Part shown: positions 196 to 36,028 of the stretch, piece after piece
How the letters are laid out: each line of letters begins with the position of its first letter
Numbering within the stretch: the first letter of the stretch is position 1
From: Chloroflexota bacterium
GTDB lineage: Bacteria; Chloroflexota; UBA6077; SHYK01
DNA: 64,000 nucleotides
Assembly (NCBI GenBank): GCA_009692845.1
Contig: SHYK01000002.1
Span: 186,001-250,000 of the forward strand
Direction of reading: 5' to 3'
Notes under the pieces: generated by a model
Seen by the model: the letters and a program-made list of their open reading frames with translations, nothing else
Told to the model about the DNA's origin: nothing
Database searches by the model: none
Program-made: the position numbers and the translations under genes

Positions 196-1629
<1,434 letters not shown>

Positions 1630-1652
1630 CTCGGCGAGTGGATCTGACACCC

Positions 1653-2426
1653 ATGCTCGAGATTAAGGGCCTCCACGTTTCCGTCGCGGGCAAGGAGATT
1701 CTGCGCGGCATCGACCTCCAAATCGGCCAGGGCGAAGTCCATGCCGTCATGGGTCCGAATGGCTCCGGTAAGAGCACGCTCGCCCAGGTGCTGGCCGGCC
1801 ACCCCGCCTATGAGGTAACCGCTGGTCAGGTGCTCTACCAGGGACGCGATCTTCTGGGGCTTCCGGCCGAGGAGCGGGCACGGGAGGGCATTTTCCTGGC
1901 CTTTCAGTACCCAGTCGAGATTCCCGGCGTGAGCGTGGCCTATTTCCTGAAAGCGGGTCTGAATGCGACGCGCAAGCACCGAGGCCTTGAGGAGCTCGAC
2001 GCCATGGAGTTCCTGGACGTTCTGCGTGCGAAGCTGAAATTTCTCGAAATCGACCAGGCCATGCTCCAACGCTCGCTCAACGAGGGTTTTTCGGGCGGGG
2101 AGAAGAAGCGGCACGAAGTACTGCAGATGGCCGTGCTGGAGCCGTCCTTGGCAATCCTCGACGAAACGGACTCGGGGCTGGACATCGATTCGCTACGAGT
2201 CGTTGCCACCGCCGTCGACCACCTGAGGGCACCGGATCGATCGACCATCATCGTCACCCATTACCAGCGTATCTTGAACTACATCACGCCTGATTTCGTC
2301 CACGTGCTCATGGGCGGCCAGATCGTCCGCTCCGGCGGAAGCGAGCTGGCGCATGAGCTGGAAGCCCGAGGATATGACTGGGTGCGCGGTGAGGCAGCCG
2401 CGGCCGGATCCGAGGTAAAGCCTTGA
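1653..2426 (+). CDS. sufC: Fe-S cluster assembly ATPase SufC
   Basis: SufC is the ABC-type ATPase of the SufBC2D complex, driving conformational change of the SufB-SufD scaffold. The 257-residue protein shows Walker A (GPNGSGKST), the ABC signature FSGGEKKR, and a Walker B followed by ILDETDSGLDID, a hallmark of SufC. The ATG at 1653 begins MLEIKGLHV, the normal N terminus; the frame is open further upstream inside sufB, but that part is shadow. A GTG at 1638 is a possible alternative. The 3' end overlaps the TTG start of sufD as TTGA. Confidence 0.96.
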   Translation: MLEIKGLHVSVAGKEILRGIDLQIGQGEVHAVMGPNGSGKSTLAQVLAGHPAYEVTAGQVLYQGRDLLGLPAEERAREGIFLAFQYPVEIPGVSVAYFLKAGLNATRKHRGLEELDAMEFLDVLRAKLKFLEIDQAMLQRSLNEGFSGGEKKRHEVLQMAVLEPSLAILDETDSGLDIDSLRVVATAVDHLRAPDRSTIIVTHYQRILNYITPDFVHVLMGGQIVRSGGSELAHELEARGYDWVRGEAAAAGSEVKP

Positions 2427-3757
2427 TCTCGGAAGCGGCTCAAAGGCGCGGTACCTTGCAGTTGGGGGCACTCGATGCTTCGCCCGCGACTCCGGAGTGG
2501 GTGCGCGAGCTCCGAAGCTCGGCGCGCACTCGATTCCACGAGCACGGCTTTCCGACTCGACGGGATGAGGACTGGAAGTACACGGATCTCGCTCCGATCA
2601 CCGGCCGGTCGGAGCTCGGCCCAGGCGGTCGCCCGGACGGGCGGCCGTTCGAAGCCGCCATCAATGTCCGGCTAGAGACCCTGGCGCCCAGCGGTCCGCG
2701 GCTGGTGTTCGTAAATGGTGAGTTCGCGGCTGATTTGTCTGTTGCAATAGACCTCCCAAGCGGGACCCGGATCGGTGCGCTGAGTCAGGATGGAATCGAC
2801 CCATGGTCGTTGACCGAAGGTCAGTTGGGGACGTTGGCGCCAATCGACCGAAAGGCCTTCGTGGCCCTCAATACGAGTCAGTTCACCGATGTGGCGATCC
2901 TGCGGTTCGCCCGAAATGCTGCGCTCACCTCGCCATTTCACCTCGTTTTCGTCTCAGCGGGAGCAGTGGCTTCCTACCCCCGGGTCTTGCTGATCCTCGA
3001 GGAGGGCGCGGAAGCCACGGTGTTGGAAACCTACCTCGCGGTCGGAGGCTCCCCTTTCACCAATGCGGTGACTGAGGTGAGTCTTGCGGCCGGAGCAGCC
3101 CTTCAGCATTGCACCTTTGCGGTCGGCGGGGGTGATTCGGCGGCGATTGGGGCGACTCATGTCGCCCTCGGCCGGGACGCGCGATATCGGTCGCTCCAGG
3201 TTTTGAGCGGTAGCGCGATCAATCGCCGCGATCTCGACGTGGCGTTTCACGGAGAAGGGGGCGAATGCTCCCTCGATGGCGCCTACATCGCGAGCGGTTC
3301 GCAGAAGGTGGAGAGCCATACCTTCGTCGACCACGCCGTTCCCCGTTGCTCGAGCCATGAGTTTTACAAGGGCGTCGTAGCCGACCAGGCGGCGGCGGTG
3401 TTCAGCGGCCGGGTTCTCGTTCGGCCCGGCGCCCAGAAAACGGATGCGGCGCAGACCAACAAGAATCTGCTGCTGTCCGGGAGTGCGACCGTCGATACCA
3501 AGCCCCACTTGGAGATCCTGGCCGATGACGTCAAGTGCAGCCATGGAGCCGCGGTGGGACCGCCGGACGACGAGACGCTGTTCTATCTGCTGAGCCGGGG
3601 CCTGGGCCGGGCAGCGGCCACCGCGCTGCTGGCTTATGGGTTCGCGGCGGAAGTGCTGGCTGACACTCCCCTGTCGATTCGGGGGATGGCCGAGCGATTG
3701 ATTGGGGACGAGGTGAGCGTCGCCACCGGGGCGACGGTCTCGTTCCGAGACGAGTAA
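2423..3757 (+). CDS. sufD: Fe-S cluster assembly protein SufD
   Basis: SufD pairs with SufB in the SufBC2D scaffold and is needed for iron entry. The 444-residue product has a helical N-terminal region with the characteristic RRDEDWKYTDL motif near residue 45, then the beta-helix domain. The C-terminal part has DAAQTNKNLLLS and CSHGAAVGPPDDETLFYLLSRG, typical of SufB/SufD proteins. The TTG start overlaps the sufC TGA, so the two are probably translationally coupled. It lies in the expected sufBCDS order. Confidence 0.95.
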   Translation: MISEAAQRRGTLQLGALDASPATPEWVRELRSSARTRFHEHGFPTRRDEDWKYTDLAPITGRSELGPGGRPDGRPFEAAINVRLETLAPSGPRLVFVNGEFAADLSVAIDLPSGTRIGALSQDGIDPWSLTEGQLGTLAPIDRKAFVALNTSQFTDVAILRFARNAALTSPFHLVFVSAGAVASYPRVLLILEEGAEATVLETYLAVGGSPFTNAVTEVSLAAGAALQHCTFAVGGGDSAAIGATHVALGRDARYRSLQVLSGSAINRRDLDVAFHGEGGECSLDGAYIASGSQKVESHTFVDHAVPRCSSHEFYKGVVADQAAAVFSGRVLVRPGAQKTDAAQTNKNLLLSGSATVDTKPHLEILADDVKCSHGAAVGPPDDETLFYLLSRGLGRAAATALLAYGFAAEVLADTPLSIRGMAERLIGDEVSVATGATVSFRDE

Positions 3758-25264: not shown

Positions 25265-26560
25265 GTGGTGAGCGCCCTCCCGCGTTGGTTGGTCGAACTA
25301 CGGCATGAGTGGCGTGCAGCGGCGGCCCTCCTCATACCTCTGGGCATCGGGCTCTGGTTCCGCCTGTAGCAGGTGGACCTTACCCAGTTCTGGTCCGAGC
25401 AGACCGCCATGCTCGACAAGGCGGCCGCGCTCGTGGACCACGGCGAGATTCCGCTAACCACCGGTCTGCTGTTCACTATCGGGGTCCGCCACACTCCACT
25501 GGTGGCTTTCCTGCTCGCGATCCCAATGCTTATCAGCAAAGACCCGGTGTGGATCTCGGGCTTCCAGGCGGGGTTGGATGTGGTCGCGATTGGGTTCGTC
25601 TTCCTGATCGGGCGGAGTTTTGGAGGACTGCGGTGTGGATTCGCAGCTGCGCTGCTCTATGCGGTGTCCCCAGCCGCGGTGAATTACAGCCGACTGATTT
25701 GGGCACCCGACTACTTGCCTTTCCTGGGCGCGGTAGCGATGTGGGGGACGGTGTCCTTTGTCCGTGGAGGTGACCATCGACGACTTGCCATAGCTGTATT
25801 CGTGGCCTGCCTCGGGACGGAGCTCCACCCCAGCGCCGCAGTGTTGCTTCTCGTGCCGGCGGTAGCCGCAGCCCGCCGGCGTCAGGATCTTCGGTGGCGG
25901 CCATTCGCCATCGCGCTGGCTGCTTTTTCCCTTTTGACGGCCCCCTACGTCGTACTTCAGATGACTACGGCGTGGTCGGATATCCCCGCGTTCCAGGCAT
26001 ATCTTGCCAGGCCGAACGTCTTTTCCTGGCAGGGACCCTACATCGCTCTGGCTGTGGTCGGCGGAGACTTTCAGCGGCAAATCACCAGCCAATTCCGGGC
26101 GCCTGACCCTACCCTCGCCACGGAACCGCTCATGTGGGTCATGGCTGGGCTGGTCCTAATCGGCTCGGAGGTCGCTCTGAGACGGAACGGTGGTTGGGTC
26201 GTCGTTGGCTCGCTCGTGCTGCCAGTCTTGGCGACCGTCCGGTTTTCGGCGACGCTCTACCCGCATTACCTTTTGCCGATCCTTCCGCCGATGGCTTGTC
26301 TTGCGGCAATCGGGTTGACGAGGATCAGGCCACGCGCCCTGAGTCTGATAGTGGTCGCGGCGGTCGCGGCGGTCGCGGCGGTGCGATTCCAGCAGATCGT
26401 TAGCTTTGACAATGCGGTCGCGGAGCTGGAGCTCGGGCCGCAGTACAGCGTGCCGTTGCGGTATACCGCCGAGGCGGCTCGGCTGGGGCTTCAGTTGGAT
26501 GGGCCGCCGCGACTCTTTGTGGGCACTGACGGAGCCAACGGTGGCTATTTTCTTATCTGA
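25265..26560 (+). pseudogene. Broken membrane glycosyltransferase copy, N-terminal membrane part
   Basis: From GTG at 25265 or 25268 the frame reads to RL, then a TAG at 25366-25368, then QVDLTQFWSEQ. The intact paralogue on the minus strand (33498-35795) reads RLWQIDLAPF here, so a Trp codon TGG has become TAG. The remaining frame (GTG possible at 25373) encodes about ten membrane spans with motifs such as GEIPLTTGLLFTIGVRHTPL. It ends early at TGA 26558-26560, because one T seems missing in the T run at 26548-26551. The family is GT39/ArnT-like membrane mannosyl- or glycosyltransferases. Two separate defects support a true pseudogene. Confidence 0.8.
26353..26379 (+). repeat. Three tandem copies of a 9-bp unit
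   Basis: The unit ggtcgcggc occurs three times in a row, adding an Ala/Val repeat (VAAVAAVAAV) to a membrane segment of the broken glycosyltransferase. It is a likely slippage site but keeps frame. Confidence 0.75.
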
Positions 26561-27591
26561 TTAGTAATCGAGAGACGGTGACTCGTTTCGAGGACCAGAA
26601 CACGCTCGTATTTGGAAAGGAGGGCGGCGTCTATGTCGTTGGTGCAAACACACCGGCCGCCCGAACGCTCGCCGAGCGTGTTGTTCCGCCATCCGCCTCG
26701 GTAAGAACGCCGGCCGGGAAGCCGGTTTTCGACGTCTTCAAGGTGTCTCCAGATGCGGCTCGTGACTACCTGGGGAGCTTGCGCTTGAAGGCGGTCGACG
26801 CTGACATTGGTCGCGTGGTGGCGATCAAGGCTTATGAGGACGTCGACCTATTGGCCGGGACGCAATCCCGGCTGGGTCTGGTCTGGGACGTGAAGAAACG
26901 CGCTTTTCCCGCCTGGCCGGACCTCAAGCTGTTCGGCCACCTCGTGGATGGGGGAGGCGCCCCGTGGTCCCGAAATCCGGACCTGTCACCCTACCCGGTT
27001 CCCGATTGGGAGGACGGCGATGTGGTCCTTTCGTGGTTCGATCTAGATCCGCCATCGTCTACCCCGCTGGGCGGCTACTGGCTTGAGATTGGATTCTATG
27101 AGCCATACATCATGGCCCGGCCGCAGGTTTATGAGGGCGACCGCGAGTTGGGCGCAACTTTGAGGCTGGGCCCGATCAAGGTCCGGGGGGCGACCCAACC
27201 GGTGGTCCGAACGCCGCTCGGCGTGTATGGGGAGGATGAGATTTCCCTTGGCGCGATGGAGTCCCAGGGAAACGAGATCAAGCTGATCTGGCGGGCGCTG
27301 AAGCGACCAACCCGCGACTACACCGTTTTTATCCATGCACTGGACGCCGAGGGGCGGATGGTCGCCCAGCACGACGGGCGGCCCCAAGCGGGCAGCTATC
27401 CGACCGATCGCTGGGAGGTCGGCGAGGTGATCCAGGATTTGCACGTCCTGGATGGGAAGTTGGCGAGCGCCGTGAAATTAGAGGTGGGCCTCTACGCCCG
27501 ACCGTCTCTCGAACGTCTACGAGCCACGGCGCCGGATGGGGCGCCGAACGGTGACGCTCTCATGATAAGCCTGCCCCGACCGGAGGGTTAG
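26551..27591 (+). pseudogene. Broken membrane glycosyltransferase copy, C-terminal domain
   Basis: Read from 26551 the frame gives SYLISNRETVTRFEDQN, which aligns directly with GYLTRNRFPIARFDSRN of the intact paralogue, so the frame shift occurred at the T run just before. The rest is a soluble extracytoplasmic domain with AGKPVFDVFKV, FGHLVDGGGAPWSRNPD, GGYWLEIGFYEPY and TRDYTVFIHALD, all present in the paralogue. A GTG at 26578 could start a separate polypeptide but has no clear Shine-Dalgarno. Its stop overlaps the convergent lipoprotein stop. Confidence 0.8.
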
Positions 27592-30366: not shown

Positions 30367-30425
30367 CCTTTCAGTTAAATCGCTGGCCCCCAGCTTGCGG
30401 GCGCGGGCACGCCGAGGATGTGCTT

Positions 30426-31208
30426 TTGTCGAAACGGGTCGCCCCACTGTTATTTCTGGTCGCACTAGCAATCACTGGATGCAGCTCCAATAGCGGGCTG
30501 CCCGGTCAGCCGGGCACCTACGATGTCCGATCCGGTTCGGTCCGCTTCGACGGCGAGCGCTACCAGTTTTTGTGGACGGATGCGGCCTCGCAGATCCACA
30601 AGGCCGACGGTAAAGACTTCCGACTTGCTCAATCCGATCGGAACTCGCTTCAGATCGGCGACGGCAGTCCGGTTTTGAACCTGAAAGAGGATGAAAAAAT
30701 CGCCGTCCAAGGTGAGGACCGAAACGGCGGATACTCATCGTTCTGGTTCCCTTTCCTGCTCGGACAAGCGCTCGGAGGCGGGGGTGGCTTTGGGCTGCCT
30801 CACGCCACGCCAACCTATCGCTATCCACCCACGGATACCTTCGGCCGCGATGAAACCATGCACGGCACGGTCACATCCGATCGGCCGGTCCCGCCCGACT
30901 ACTCCCAGGTGAAGCCCGCCGCCAACTCGGTGAGCGGCCAGGCGGCTGGCACCGGTGGGGGAACCGCGGCGACCAACAAGTCCACGTCGCCGGTGAGCGG
31001 TCAGGCGGGCGGAGTGGGCTCCGGGTCTGCAGCCTCGACCAAAGGTGGATTTGCATCGGGCCCTTCGAGCTATGCGTCAAAAGGGGCGAGCATCGGATCC
31101 GGTTCTAAGATCTCGAGCGGTGGGCTGTTCGGCGCCTCGGCGGGGAAGGCCCCCAGCCGCGCGCTCGGGGGCCGTTCGAGCGGCGGGGTGCGGCTTGGGC
31201 GAAGGTAA
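30426..31208 (+). CDS. Lipoprotein with Gly/Ser-rich C-terminal region, PspA-cassette member
   Basis: The 260-residue product begins MSKRVAPLLFLVALAITGC, a lipoprotein signal with a lipobox at ITGC. A folded region of about 80 residues (RFDGERYQFLWTDAASQIHK) follows. The second half is low-complexity with repeated VSGQAAGTGGG / VSGQAGGVGSG and ends SSGGVRLGRR. No family was recognised with certainty; Gly/Ser-rich secreted partners are common beside DUF4178/DUF350 genes. TTG at 30426 has GAGGA 7 bases upstream; GTG at 30420 is too close. DUF4178 follows 28 bases later. Confidence 0.7.
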   Translation: MSKRVAPLLFLVALAITGCSSNSGLPGQPGTYDVRSGSVRFDGERYQFLWTDAASQIHKADGKDFRLAQSDRNSLQIGDGSPVLNLKEDEKIAVQGEDRNGGYSSFWFPFLLGQALGGGGGFGLPHATPTYRYPPTDTFGRDETMHGTVTSDRPVPPDYSQVKPAANSVSGQAAGTGGGTAATNKSTSPVSGQAGGVGSGSAASTKGGFASGPSSYASKGASIGSGSKISSGGLFGASAGKAPSRALGGRSSGGVRLGRR

Positions 31209-31236
31209 CTCAAGCCACCCGGGCGAGCGGTAGCTG

Positions 31237-31959
31237 GTGGAGCCAGCCGCATTGGTAGCCGGTCTGGTCGTGGTTGGCGCCGCCATCTTTTGGTATCGGA
31301 GGCGTCAAACTGCTCGTCCTATTCGTAAGGAGATAACAGAGCTGACGCTGGCGTCCCTTGCAGCCGGCGACGTCGTGAACCTCAACGGCCATTTACTCAT
31401 TGTCGAAGCGGCGGTTGATTGCCGAGAGGCCTTATTGAACCGAGAGACCCGCTGGCGGTGGCTGTTCCTTGGGGACGGTTCGCTGCTGGAGAGCAGCCCC
31501 AGCGAGAATATTCTGTATGCAGGCATTCAGCTGGTGCGTCAGGGGAGCGAGGATTTCCAGGAGCTAGTAGCGGATGGAGGCGTTTTGAAACGATTCGAAG
31601 AGCAGGTTCGATCGCTCGGCGCGGGAGCGGAGCTCGACTATCAGTCGCCGAGTGGGGGCGCTTATCGCATGCGCAGCACTGGGACCTTTGCGGTGGATGC
31701 GATGGGCACCCTTCCGGCGCGGGAAGTCTGGAGGGACATCAGCGCTAGCCAGCCGGATAACGTCTACTTCAAGCTCGCAGGTGCGGAAGACTCGTCCCTC
31801 CTCGGAGTTTGGACCACCCATATCGCGCTCTGTGCAGGGCGGCCACTAAGCGGCGGAGAAATCCTGGGCCTCTATCCGGGCCAGGATGGACTGGATGCGG
31901 CGGGGCACCACCGCTTGGGCGGGCTGATCGAACAAGACGGCCAGGGGATGCGCCGATGA
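31237..31959 (+). CDS. DUF4178-like membrane-anchored protein
   Basis: The 240-residue protein has one N-terminal membrane span (LVAGLVVVGAAIFWYRRR) and a cytoplasmic domain with LTLASLAAGDVVNLNGHLLIV, RWRWLFLGDG and AYRMRSTGTFAVDAMG. This resembles DUF4178, a family that repeatedly neighbours PspA and DUF350 in many phyla. GTG start at 31237. Its TGA overlaps the ATG of the DUF350 gene. Its role is probably in membrane stress, inferred from context. Confidence 0.78.
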   Translation: MEPAALVAGLVVVGAAIFWYRRRQTARPIRKEITELTLASLAAGDVVNLNGHLLIVEAAVDCREALLNRETRWRWLFLGDGSLLESSPSENILYAGIQLVRQGSEDFQELVADGGVLKRFEEQVRSLGAGAELDYQSPSGGAYRMRSTGTFAVDAMGTLPAREVWRDISASQPDNVYFKLAGAEDSSLLGVWTTHIALCAGRPLSGGEILGLYPGQDGLDAAGHHRLGGLIEQDGQGMRR

Positions 31960-32174
31960 ATCCGGAAATCGAACGATTCGCGCTGTCACTCGGCAACACG
32001 CTGCTCTGGAGCACCGTGGCAATCGTCTTGGTCATAGTGGTCTTCGAGGTCCTCAATCTGAGGTACCACCTCATGAAAGAGGTCTTTGAAGAGAACAGCG
32101 TGGCGGCGGCGCTGCTGGCGGCGAGCTTCGTTGCCGGAATCTTCTACACCGTCGTCCAAATCGTCATTCACTAA
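31956..32174 (+). CDS. DUF350-family small membrane protein
   Basis: A 72-residue protein with two membrane spans (LLWSTVAIVLVIVVFEVLNL and AAALLAASFVAGIFYTVV) around a short loop with KEVFEENSVAA. This is a short, half-size form of DUF350 (YjfL-like), which usually has paired copies of such a unit. ATG overlaps the DUF4178 stop by 4 bases. It ends 9 bases before pspA. The order DUF4178-DUF350-PspA parallels the E. coli yjf locus. Confidence 0.82.
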   Translation: MNPEIERFALSLGNTLLWSTVAIVLVIVVFEVLNLRYHLMKEVFEENSVAAALLAASFVAGIFYTVVQIVIH

Positions 32175-32183
32175 GGGGGAGTC

Positions 32184-32918
32184 ATGGGGCTGCTAGCTCG
32201 GATGAGCACACTCTTGAAGGCGAAGACCAGCTCCATCCTGGAGCGCACCGAGAACCCGTCGGAGACCCTCGATTACTCCTATGAAAAGCTCCAGGCCATG
32301 CTCCGACAGGTCCAGCGCGGCATCGTCGAGCAGGTCACCGCCAAACATCGCTTGGCCCAACAGGCGAGTCAGCTGCGGTCGCAGAGCGGCCAGCTCGACA
32401 ACCAGGCTCGGCAGGCCCTACAGGCCGGACGGGAAGATCTGGCCCGAATGGCGCTGCAGCGGAAGCAGGCTGCCGTGGAGCAGCTCCAGGGGCTGGACGA
32501 GCAGGTCGCGAGCCTGGAGGCGGAACAGCAGCGGCTCACTACGGCGGAAATGAATCTGCGCACGAAGGTTGAGGCCTTCCGGACCCACAAGGAAGTACTC
32601 AAAGCGCGGTATGTGGCCAGTGAAGCTGAAGTTCGGATCGGCGAGGCACTGCACGGGGTGGGGGAGGAGATGGCCGATGTCGGCTTGACGATCGAGCGAG
32701 CCGAGCAAAAAACCAGCCAGCTGCGGGCGCGCGCGGCGGCCATCGATGAGCTCGCCGCGGCGGGTACCTTGAACGACGTTATGGGCACCAGCCAGAGTGA
32801 CCTGAGCCTTCAGCTGGGTCAAATCACCGCGGCTCAGAACGTCGAAGACGAGCTCGCGCTGCTCAAGGGGAGCCTGGGGCCGGGGGCCGAGCCGAAGCAG
32901 TTGGCCTCCGGGCAATGA
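32184..32918 (+). CDS. pspA: PspA/IM30 phage-shock membrane-remodelling protein
   Basis: PspA-family proteins bind stressed membranes and form ESCRT-III-like assemblies. The 244-residue product is almost wholly helical and starts MGLLARMSTLLKAKTSSILE, the amphipathic membrane-binding helix. Long coiled coils follow (QLRSQSGQLDNQARQAL, LDEQVASLEAEQQRL) and the C-terminal segment with SDLSLQLGQITAAQ. A gggggag precedes the ATG. The stop overlaps the ATG of pspAA. Confidence 0.93.
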   Translation: MGLLARMSTLLKAKTSSILERTENPSETLDYSYEKLQAMLRQVQRGIVEQVTAKHRLAQQASQLRSQSGQLDNQARQALQAGREDLARMALQRKQAAVEQLQGLDEQVASLEAEQQRLTTAEMNLRTKVEAFRTHKEVLKARYVASEAEVRIGEALHGVGEEMADVGLTIERAEQKTSQLRARAAAIDELAAAGTLNDVMGTSQSDLSLQLGQITAAQNVEDELALLKGSLGPGAEPKQLASGQ

Positions 32919-33190
32919 TCGCCCGGATTATCGGCGGAGGCCAGTACCGAATTGCCGACGACGCCTTGGCTCACTTGAACCAACTCGACGACGCGGTCGT
33001 CGCGGCCGTCGCGACGGGGCGAGAGAGCGACTTTCGAGCCGCCTTCGAAGCGCTGCTGGCCGCGGTTCGAAGCAAAGGAGCTTTAGTTCCGCCAACCGAA
33101 TTCGTGACGTCTGAGCTAGTGCTGCCTTATGAAGGCATCACGCTAGCCGAGGCCCAGGACATTTTCGTCGGTCAAGGGCTGATTCCTTAA
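32915..33190 (+). CDS. pspAA: PspA-associated protein PspAA
   Basis: The 91-residue protein reads MIARIIGGGQYRIADDALAH near the start, then LNQLDDAVVAAVATG, FEALLAAVRSKGALVPPTEF and SELVLPYEGITLAE. This matches PspAA, a small domain tied to PspA in Actinobacteria, Chloroflexota and others. The ATG overlaps the pspA stop, so the two are likely made together. Its biochemical role is not established; it presumably modulates PspA. Confidence 0.88.
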   Translation: MIARIIGGGQYRIADDALAHLNQLDDAVVAAVATGRESDFRAAFEALLAAVRSKGALVPPTEFVTSELVLPYEGITLAEAQDIFVGQGLIP

Positions 33191-33212
33191 TCGAACTCAG
33201 AAGGAGCGGATC

Positions 33213-33494
33213 ATGACGATCAGACTGATGGTGAGTATCGCCGCACTGCCGGGCAAGGGCGGAGAGCTGGCGAAACTCCGGGCGCCCAGGGCGGCCGAGG
33301 TGCGTTTGGAGCCGGGGTGCGAGCAGTTCGAGCTCTTCCAGAGCACCGAAAACCCGGATCAACTGGTCTTGCTCGAAAAGTGGACGGATGAAGCGAGCCT
33401 GGCCGCGCATTCCAAACGCAATCAGGAACGGCCGCAGGTGGGGACCGAGCTGCGAGCAGGCGCCAGCGTGATGGAACGGTATGTCACTGAGTAG
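33213..33494 (+). CDS. ABM-family (antibiotic biosynthesis monooxygenase-like) protein
   Basis: A 93-residue dimeric alpha/beta-barrel type protein: IRLMVSIAALPGKGGELAKL, then EPGCEQFELFQSTENPDQLV and LLEKWTDEASLAAHSK. That is the layout of the ABM superfamily, including YgiN-like quinol monooxygenases. AAGGAG precedes the ATG by 8 bases. It is probably co-transcribed with pspAA, 22 bases upstream. Substrate is unknown; a quinone link is only suggested by the men genes 2.5 kb away. Confidence 0.83.
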   Translation: MTIRLMVSIAALPGKGGELAKLRAPRAAEVRLEPGCEQFELFQSTENPDQLVLLEKWTDEASLAAHSKRNQERPQVGTELRAGASVMERYVTE

Positions 33495-33497
33495 AGA

Positions 33498-35795
33498 CTA
33501 CCGAATGGACGTGGTGAGATGGTCTCCGATTGGCCGCCCTTGCGAGTCGACGACCGAGAGCCGCTCGAGCGATGGCCGCGAGTAGAGACCGATCTCGAGT
33601 TGAATCGCTGAACCTAGGTTTCCATCGAGCTGGTGGAGGTCCTGAATCGTCTCGCCAGCATCCCAGAGCGTTGTGGGATAGCTGTCCCGGGCCGGTTTGC
33701 TGTCGTTTTGGCCTACCAACTTGCCCGCTGCATCGAGGGCGTGGACGAATACCGTGTAGTCTCTAAGAGGCTTCCGGTTGGCGTGCCAGGTCAGGATGAC
33801 TTGCTGGTCGCGCAGCTCGACGCCCACCAGGCTGATCTCCTGGTTACCGAAGGTTGCTTGGGTCGCGCCAGCGGTCGCCGCATTGACCCCGCTGACCTTG
33901 AGCGGCCCCAGTCGGAGAAAAGTCCCAATGTCCCGCGCGCCATCGTACACGTGGGGACGGTCCCCCACATAGAGCTGATAAAAGCCGGTCTCGAGCCAGT
34001 AGCCGCCGGTCGGGGTATCGGGCCGGGGATCGAGGTCCAGCCAGGTATGGACCGAATCTCCGACACGCCAATCCTCAACCACGAACGGATTGATGTCGGG
34101 ATTGGTGGACCAGCCACGGCCATCTGTATCAACCAGGTGTCCGAAGAGGTGGAGGTCCAACCAGCGGGGGAAGGCGGTCGCGGTGACCTGCCAGGCCAGC
34201 TCCACGTTGGAGGGGTTGCCCGCTCTTAGGCCAGCGTCATGGTAGCCAATAACCCTGGCCACGTGACCGATGTCGGCATCGAGGGGCTGGGGTGGCAGGG
34301 TGGCGAGGGCAACGGCGGCGGCCTCGGGCGCAACGTCGAAGAGGGCGAAAACTGGCCGACCAGCCGGTGTGCTGACTGTAGCTACAGGAGGACCGAACGC
34401 CGAGGTGAGAAAGGGGACGGCGTGCCCCTCGGCTTCCGCGATGTAGAAGGCGCCCTCGGGGCGGAGCACCACTGAGTTGCGGCTGTCGAAGCGGGCAATG
34501 GGGAAGCGATTTCGGGTGAGATAACCGAAGAAATCGCCCCGGCTGTCCGGTCGTCCCACCAGGAGGTCTTTTCCGGGGTTGAGCTGGACGGCCAGCCGAG
34601 CGGCCTGTTCTGAGTAGCGCAGGGCGGGGCCGAAGGGCAGGATGACGTCCCGGGCCGCCACGGCCTGCTCGAAGCCGAAAGCATCGACCGATCGAGTCGC
34701 TACGATGGTGGCCAGGATCGTCACCCCGATCGGCAACGGCCTGATCGTGGAGAGCGCCACCCCGGCTAGGGCCGCCGCACCGGGCAAGACGTCGAGCAGA
34801 TAGTGCGGATAGACGGATTCCGCGCTGCGGAGCGCCAGTAGGATGGGAGTGAGCAGCCAGAGCAGGGCGACCCAGCCGCCCGGTTTCCGCAGTGCCACCA
34901 TGCCGCCGGTGGTGACGAGCGCCAGGCTGACCCAGGTGAGTGGCTCGGTGAAGAGGGACGGATCCATCTGGGTGGAGCCGCTGGTCAATTGGCGGCGGAG
35001 ATCCCCGCCGATCAGCGAGGCCGCGAGATAGAACGCTTCGCCCGCGAAGTGTTTGGGAATGCCGAGGTAGGCTCCCACCGCCCAGAGATCAGCCCAGCCG
35101 GTGGTGATTTGCAGCCAGATGTAGGGCGCCAAGATGAGGCCAAGCGCACCGGCCGCCAGGGCCAGTGGCTTCCACCGAATGTCCCGCCATCGAACGATGG
35201 CCACAATGCCGAGCACCGGAAGCAGGCTGGCCGCGCTCGGGTGAAGCTGGGCAGCGCAGCAAATTGCCAAGCCGCCTGCCGCGAGATGTCGCGAATCCCC
35301 GCGCAGGGCAAAACCCACGGCGCCCCACAGACCAATCGCGGCAAAAAAGGGGACCAGATCGGGGTTCCAGATCAATCGCCCATAGAGGATCGCCGCTGGC
35401 CACGCGGCGTAAAGCAGACCGGTGGCTAGGCCGGTCCATCGCCCACCGAGGTCCCGGCCGACCAGGTAGAGAAAGATGGCGCCCAGGGCATCCAGGGAAG
35501 CCTGGAAGGCGGCGATCCAGCTCGCGTCTTTGCTGACTAGCATCGGAAGCGCAAGCAGGAAGGTCACCAGCGGGGGGTGGTTGACTCCAATCGTGAAGGT
35601 GAGACCGCTGGTTTGAGGGATTCGGCCGCTGTCGACGAAAGCTGCGGCGCCGGCGAGCAGCCGGCCCTGGTCCGAATCGAAGGGAGCGAGATCGATTTGC
35701 CAGAGGCGGAGCCCCAGGGCCACTATCAGCGGCAAGAGAGGCGGAAGCGACGCCGCAAAGAGGCCTTGGAACCGAGGGCTGGAAAGGAGCTTCAT
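33498..35795 (-). CDS. GT39/ArnT-like membrane glycosyltransferase with C-terminal soluble domain
   Basis: The 765-residue protein has a GT-C membrane domain of about 450 residues. The first extracytoplasmic loop reads APFDSDQGRLLAGAAAFV, with an acidic residue as in ArnT/PMT enzymes, then TIGVNHPPLVTFLLALPM. The C-terminal half is soluble, with FGHLVDTDGRGWSTNPDINP, GGYWLETGFYQLY and LRDYTVFVHALDAAG. It probably moves a sugar from a lipid carrier outside the membrane. ATG at 35795 gives an N terminus matching the length of the broken paralogue at 25265; ATG at 35855 is a longer option. A 17-bp duplication covers this start. Confidence 0.82.
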   Translation of the reverse strand: MKLLSSPRFQGLFAASLPPLLPLIVALGLRLWQIDLAPFDSDQGRLLAGAAAFVDSGRIPQTSGLTFTIGVNHPPLVTFLLALPMLVSKDASWIAAFQASLDALGAIFLYLVGRDLGGRWTGLATGLLYAAWPAAILYGRLIWNPDLVPFFAAIGLWGAVGFALRGDSRHLAAGGLAICCAAQLHPSAASLLPVLGIVAIVRWRDIRWKPLALAAGALGLILAPYIWLQITTGWADLWAVGAYLGIPKHFAGEAFYLAASLIGGDLRRQLTSGSTQMDPSLFTEPLTWVSLALVTTGGMVALRKPGGWVALLWLLTPILLALRSAESVYPHYLLDVLPGAAALAGVALSTIRPLPIGVTILATIVATRSVDAFGFEQAVAARDVILPFGPALRYSEQAARLAVQLNPGKDLLVGRPDSRGDFFGYLTRNRFPIARFDSRNSVVLRPEGAFYIAEAEGHAVPFLTSAFGPPVATVSTPAGRPVFALFDVAPEAAAVALATLPPQPLDADIGHVARVIGYHDAGLRAGNPSNVELAWQVTATAFPRWLDLHLFGHLVDTDGRGWSTNPDINPFVVEDWRVGDSVHTWLDLDPRPDTPTGGYWLETGFYQLYVGDRPHVYDGARDIGTFLRLGPLKVSGVNAATAGATQATFGNQEISLVGVELRDQQVILTWHANRKPLRDYTVFVHALDAAGKLVGQNDSKPARDSYPTTLWDAGETIQDLHQLDGNLGSAIQLEIGLYSRPSLERLSVVDSQGRPIGDHLTTSIR

Positions 35796-35814
35796 TTGGA
35801 AGGGAGCTTCATCT
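35781..35814 (-). repeat. Tandem 17-bp duplication spanning the glycosyltransferase start codon
   Basis: Bases 35781-35797 and 35798-35814 are adjacent copies of a 17-bp unit with two mismatches. On the minus strand each copy holds ATGAAGCTCC. The upstream copy opens a 6-codon frame (MKLPSK) whose TGA overlaps the gene's ATG at 35795 as ATGA. The gene starts MKLLSS. Confidence 0.8.
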
Positions 35815-36028
35815 GCATATCGTCCGTTGGGGGCCCACCTAATCGGAGAGATCATGATTACTGGGAAGGGTCGACCTCATGTTGACTAAGGACCGCCTTG
35901 TATACTCAAAAGTCGCTCACCAATGCTGCTGAAGAACATGCTGATGGTGACTGCGCGGTCCATGATCACCTGAATCTGCCTGCTCGGAGACTGGGAGCAT
36001 TGGTAGCTCGGCCTGTCGAGATCTCCCA

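Follow-up and report, generated by a model that had tools for sequence, protein, structure and literature searches.

A PspA–PspAA pair joined to a lipoprotein–DUF4178-like–half-length DUF350 module in a Chloroflexota genome

What, if anything, unites PspA and its associated protein PspAA with the lipoprotein, DUF4178-like and DUF350 genes that precede them in a Chloroflexota bacterium? We addressed this in a window of 64,000 nucleotides (G000:C5:186001-250000) from a 1.88 Mb, 89%-complete genome, using Chloroflexota metagenome bins as the source of related loci. ORF calls confirmed the six genes of the initial annotation, on one strand and in the order it gave (lipoprotein, DUF4178, DUF350, PspA, PspAA and ABM protein; 30426-33494). 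Successive junctions measure +28, -4, +9, -4 and +22 bp, the last lying between PspAA and ABM. The five co-directional genes at 30426-33190, separated by two 4-bp overlaps and gaps of 28 and 9 bp, form the core. This spacing suggests transcription as one unit; a scan inside the cluster found no consensus promoter and no convincing terminator, which neither proves nor disproves a single transcript. A plasmid collection contained no match to the locus DNA or to the DUF4178-like protein.

The sixth gene (33213..33494, + strand) encodes an ABM-domain (antibiotic biosynthesis monooxygenase-like) protein (PF03992, E = 1.5e-14, above cut-off). It starts 22 bp after PspAA and ends 3 bp short of a gene that converges on it and encodes a large membrane protein. 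Because none of the related loci examined carries a homologue, we reject it as a member of the unit and regard it as probably a bystander, contrary to the proposal that all six genes work together. The cassette combines known parts in a new way, a PspA-PspAA dyad with a lipoprotein–DUF4178-like–half-DUF350 module.

The dyad is readily recognised. The PspA/IM30 protein (32184..32918, + strand), of the ESCRT-III-like type, matches PF04012 over residues 2-229 of 244 (E = 2.2e-24, above cut-off), is the only PspA found in the genome and falls in the PspAA-associated clade of a PspA tree. Overlapping pspA by 4 bp, and so placed as PspAA adjacent to PspA in the manner that defines the dyad, is the 91-aa PspAA (PspA-associated domain A; 32915..33190, + strand), which matches PF22743 over its full length (E = 2.2e-27, above cut-off). 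We considered whether PspAA is a homologue of the CesT/Tir protein YjfI and dropped the idea after finding no sequence similarity in a low-power comparison with a single YjfI sequence. PspAA occurs in 63 of 350 sampled genomes of the phylum, and at nearly all PspAA loci examined a PspA is adjacent or fused.

Two membrane-associated proteins precede the dyad. The DUF4178-like protein (31237..31959, + strand) was described from alignment, a structure model and a TM scan: a single N-terminal TM helix (residues 2-25; 1-21 in the TM scan), with RRR inside its C-terminal end, is followed by a beta-rich domain predicted to be cytoplasmic. The model (pLDDT 73) shows the same N-terminal helix and beta-rich domain, and the family alignment has 27 invariant columns. 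The window's protein has no Pfam match and PF13785 is matched marginally by 2 of 16 family members (best E = 0.0054), so "DUF4178-like" is the safe name. Sequence and fold searches against the PDB returned nothing significant. A candidate relationship to YjfK (DUF2491) was rejected when profile comparison showed no similarity. The next gene, DUF350 (31956..32174, + strand), overlaps it by 4 bp and encodes 72 aa with two predicted TM helices. It matches PF03994 with E = 4.3e-5 at 24 bits, against a cut-off of 26, and covers model positions 70-122, the second half only; it is 58-69% identical to the DUF350 of ligase-free relatives. The half length, noted in the initial annotation as a difference from the E. 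coli yjf locus, is the rule in the phylum, since DUF350 measures 69-75 aa across related loci (unsupported upstream starts set aside).

The first gene (30426..31208, + strand) encodes a lipoprotein, which we studied through its ORF, homologues, alignment and a structure model. Its start is more likely the TTG at 30426 than the GTG at 30420, because a GAGGA site lies ~7-8 nt upstream of the former. The protein has a signal peptide with lipobox LAITGC, a beta-rich domain (~residues 30-116), a W-x-P motif and a long disordered Gly/Ser tail ending ...SSGGVRLGRR; the model reaches a mean pLDDT of ~70-80 over residues 31-110, a small beta domain, with the tail disordered. Homologues were found in 27 of the 350 phylum genomes. 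The protein has no Pfam match, DUF1190 included, and a fold search gave nothing significant and matched no known fold. Comparison with DUF1190 (YjfM/YgiB) aligned only the 15-residue W-x-P motif (pairwise E = 0.0035, probability 9%), a similarity too short to call it a plain DUF1190 protein. An earlier view that the Gly/Ser-rich lipoprotein is an addition to the E. coli yjf locus does not survive, because the yjf operon itself includes yjfM, a Gly/Ser-rich DUF1190 gene, and because lipoprotein-DUF4178-DUF350 is recurrent in Chloroflexota.

Of the 350 phylum genomes, 25 have the DUF4178-like family, as do 18 of the 29 class genomes analysed, mainly in two layouts. Layout A comprises the lipoprotein, ORFX, a GSP_synth ligase, and DUF4178 with a half DUF350, often convergent (L099, L102, L103, L120, L123); further genomes carry the lipoprotein-ORFX-ligase set with no DUF4178 nearby. 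Layout B, to which the window belongs, places lipoprotein, DUF4178 and DUF350 on one strand with no ligase. The lipoprotein-DUF4178-DUF350 module stands without an adjacent PspA in L106, L109, L111, L115 and L126, and the other neighbours of layout B are mostly unrelated, non-recurring genes. Only in L110 does a histidine kinase gene adjoin the module.

These neighbourhoods bear on a signalling cascade for the cassette, in which, as first suggested, the lipoprotein would sense outside stress and DUF350 would relay it, and in which PspA and PspAA would switch transcription. Topology permits such a route, and a signalling role of PspA in enterobacteria is textbook knowledge. PspB, PspC and PspF are all missing from the cassette locus, which therefore falls outside the classical PspF-PspABC type; their reported absence holds for the locus, but for PspC it does not extend to the genome, which encodes a PspC/LiaF-type protein at G000:C2:119270, a point in favour of a cascade. 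Against this, no transcription factor or anti-sigma gene occurs in the cassette or recurs beside relatives' modules, and the neighbours of ligase-free modules are mostly unrelated. We regard a transcriptional cascade as improbable.

The pairing of PspA with the module could also be mere juxtaposition. PspA lies beside DUF4178 in 5 of the 18 class genomes with the module (the window's genome G000, G038, G169, G193 and G105) and in JACPQD010000021 (L129), against ~0.05 such genomes expected by chance in our own arithmetic (1-2 PspA genes per genome, a 10-kb neighbourhood, ~4 Mb). The remaining 13 of the 18 have the module without adjacent PspA. All 29 class genomes have a PspA match, one of them below the curated cut-off: 19 have canonical PspA only, 8 PspAA-type only, 1 both, and 1 the single below-cut-off match. 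The PspAA type largely stands in for canonical PspA and vice versa, and the module coexists with canonical PspA in 12 genomes and with the PspAA type in 6. Co-occurrence of PspAA with DUF4178 and DUF350, on which the idea of a common unit partly depended, gave a mixed answer: both are present in 6 of 29 class genomes and physically linked in 2, G000 and G038. In G038 a layout A module stands beside a divergent PspA-PspAA pair; of the other PspAA loci examined, none but the window's has members of the lipoprotein, DUF4178 or DUF350 families. One PspAA locus (L058) contains a short match to the lipoprotein profile that looks spurious.

Gene order and phylogeny add a second line of evidence. G169 (L107/L125) and L129 share the gene order lipoprotein-ICMT/PEMT methyltransferase-DUF4178-DUF350-PspA; here PspA follows DUF350 immediately and takes the slot that PspA-PspAA occupies in the window. 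In a PspA tree built by a quick method with modest supports, the PspAs of the window and G038 sit within the PspAA-type clade and the remaining four PspAs beside a module group apart; the PspAs of L107, L129, L116 and L117 belong to a different clade from that of the window. Since module-linked PspAs fall in different clades, the linkage arose more than once. A canonical PspA of another clade fills the same slot in 2 of 6 PspA-linked loci, which makes the partnership look functional, and that two PspA lineages adjoin the same module favours a functional tie over chance. Under the chance reading, the module and the dyad have unrelated functions and have simply ended up in one operon of a small genome with closely spaced genes. 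It gains from the four genomes that have the module and PspAA on different contigs (G019, G113, G121, G129) and from the restriction of co-directional, one-strand PspAA-module linkage to the window's genome; the repeated adjacency of PspA, spanning two clades and several gene orders, makes it unlikely in our judgement. As a separate observation, the membrane methyltransferase (ICMT/PEMT) in the L125 and L129 operons fits a membrane-lipid role.

The absence of a peptide-spermidine ligase, which the initial annotation did not mention, is the most informative difference from yjf, and it coincides with a difference in the lipoprotein itself. A search of the genome, 89% complete, found no GSP_synth (PF03738) homologue. 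The 13 lipoproteins without a ligase all have Arg/Lys/His as their last residue, and the 17 ligase-linked ones all have Ser/Gly/Ala (0 of 17 basic; Fisher p = 8e-9). In this count L164 is scored as ligase-linked on the strength of an ORFX at the edge of its contig, and L162 and L163, not linked to DUF4178, are scored ligase-free since no ligase was seen in their genomes; the lipoprotein tree omits L157 and L170, which lack part of the N-terminus but have complete tails. Four genomes (G137, G225, G065, G177) carry both kinds, and each copy keeps its own tail rule. On the tree, the ligase-free and ligase-linked proteins are the two sides of one branch (bootstrap 93); the rule is one split and thus a single change, so the p-value overstates the evidence and the pattern may reflect inheritance rather than function. 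We accordingly discarded the notion of many independent correlated events. Partial independent support comes from Gly-terminal proteins elsewhere: the small Gly-rich proteins upstream of other-family GSP_synth genes (L171, L172, L174, L175, L176, L177), with no detected similarity to the lipoprotein, end in Gly, and E. coli YjfM and YgiB end in Gly-Gly. In E. coli, YjfC and YgiC bear the annotation peptide-spermidine ligase (Pederick et al. 2023, as cited in PMC10948618 and PMC12568646).

It is conceivable that the window still encodes a polyamine-dependent, yjf-like system, with the enzyme that modifies the lipoprotein tail lying elsewhere in the genome. The genome does carry AdoMet decarboxylase and spermidine synthase genes side by side (G000:C2:249518-250571, on another contig than the cassette), and the sister module has a GSP_synth-type ligase. 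Against it stand the lack of a GSP_synth match in the genome search and the Arg-Arg end of the window's tail, unlike every ligase-linked tail. Moreover, in G113, G129 and G169, which have the module, AdoMet decarboxylase went undetected and matches to the spermine-synthase family were weak, in genomes that are incomplete. We consider it very unlikely.

A broader generalisation, which we think rather doubtful, is that the lipoprotein C-terminus must carry a polycation: a ligase-attached polyamine on a neutral Ser/Gly end in one clade, an encoded basic end in the ligase-free clade of the window, with a PspA slot that takes either canonical or PspAA-dependent PspA. If it were true, the lipoprotein would be a physiological substrate of peptide-spermidine ligases.

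The reading we tentatively prefer, holding it at somewhat less than even confidence, is that the cassette is a membrane-maintenance unit made of two joined modules, with a tail charge encoded in the lipoprotein itself where a polyamine may provide it in the ligase version. PspA would polymerise into an ESCRT-III-like scaffold on the inner leaflet of the membrane, and PspAA, probably coupled to it in translation, may control or chaperone its assembly. Together, the DUF4178-like domain with its TM anchor and DUF350 with its two helices could form a membrane platform that brings PspA to a site. On the outer face, the lipoprotein might reach into the wall by its flexible Gly/Ser tail, whose basic end would bind anionic lipid or wall polymer and so mark or hold that site. 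For the sister version the prediction is that an ATP-grasp ligase of the YjfC type puts polyamine on a neutral tail; in the window the charge would be encoded as Arg. The expected outcome is local membrane stabilisation and not a transcriptional cascade. Whatever the mechanism, the arrangement shows the module with PspA and without a ligase, and shows its PspA partner to be exchangeable.

How new is this arrangement? None of the parts is new, and PspA has already been described in the company of DUF350, DUF4178 and a lipoprotein (PMC11237479). The literature searched, most subscription journals lying outside it, contained neither the combination of module and PspAA, nor a cassette of this kind without a polyamine gene, nor the tail rule; the same literature yielded no tested role for DUF4178, DUF350, PspAA or the cell targets of YjfC/YgiC ligases. 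PspA-PspAA dyads are adjacent genes in archaea and bacteria and are fused in some Actinobacteria and Chloroflexi (PMC11237479; PF22743). Their published contexts are two-component systems or metallopeptidase/PspAB/SHOCT (PMC11237479), whereas the window's is lipoprotein-DUF4178-DUF350.

Among the closest known systems are the operons of Ravi et al. 2024 (PMC11237479), which combine CesT/Tir-PspA with DUF350, DUF4178, a Ctha_1186 lipoprotein and 7TM-spermine synthase. They resemble the cassette, by description, in having PspA, DUF350, a beta-rich DUF4178 protein and a novel lipoprotein; the cassette has neither a CesT/Tir partner nor a spermine synthase-7TM gene, carries PspAA, and has a DUF350 with 2 TMs compared with 8 TM in theirs. 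The sister layout A of Chloroflexota has homologous lipoprotein, DUF4178-like and half DUF350 proteins, but adds an ATP-grasp peptide-polyamine-type ligase and has a Ser/Gly/Ala tail end in place of the Arg/Lys/His type. The parallel drawn with E. coli yjfI-yjfJ-yjfK-yjfL-yjfM-yjfC (NC_000913.3 4410133-4414191) is borne out, in that both loci have a PspA-family protein, a DUF350 membrane protein and a Gly/Ser-rich lipoprotein-like protein. The cassette differs by having no YjfI (DUF2170), YjfK (DUF2491) or YjfC ligase, by its half-length DUF350 and by PspAA in place of YjfI; it is a PspA-centred membrane cassette that resembles the yjf locus without being yjf.

The ABM-domain gene (window 33213-33494) starts 22 bp past PspAA and has a good ribosome site. 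It is probably a passenger, because no ABM homologue was found near PspAA or DUF4178 among the relatives' loci. Around the cassette, two adjoining plus-strand ORFs of 395 and 337 aa, in different frames (25373-27591), are both homologous to a 785-aa protein encoded on the minus strand (33498-35855), and the plus-strand copy either looks frameshift-split or is a degraded paralogue.

Two kinds of gene were noted immediately 5' of a GSP_synth ligase (YjfC-type ATP-grasp, a predicted peptide-polyamine ligase). ORFX, roughly 185-230 aa and matching no Pfam family, occupies this position in L099, L100, L102, L103, L108, L120, L123 and L156-L160; some of these loci carry an extra ORF of roughly 70 aa between the lipoprotein and ORFX. 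Small Gly-rich proteins with a C-terminal Gly stand there in L171, L172, L174, L176 and L177, from other Chloroflexota families; they are candidate ligase substrates, and no similarity between them and the lipoprotein was detected.

The lipoprotein ORF of L165 (2903-4687, minus strand), whose tail is out of frame relative to close relatives L166-L168, probably carries a frameshift, and we excluded it from the tally of lipoprotein C-terminal residues. Elsewhere, an ICMT/PEMT-type membrane methyltransferase gene (L125, 6602-7312; L129, 6267-7031) separates the lipoprotein from DUF4178, and PspA is the last gene of both operons.

A different contig of the window's genome (L161, C2:117000-121500) encodes a protein that has a PspC domain and a TM region of LiaI/LiaF type (1944-2492, minus strand); a LiaF/Toastrack-looking protein (952-2088, minus strand) follows it. 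This pair, the other half of a Psp/Lia system, lies apart from PspA in this genome.
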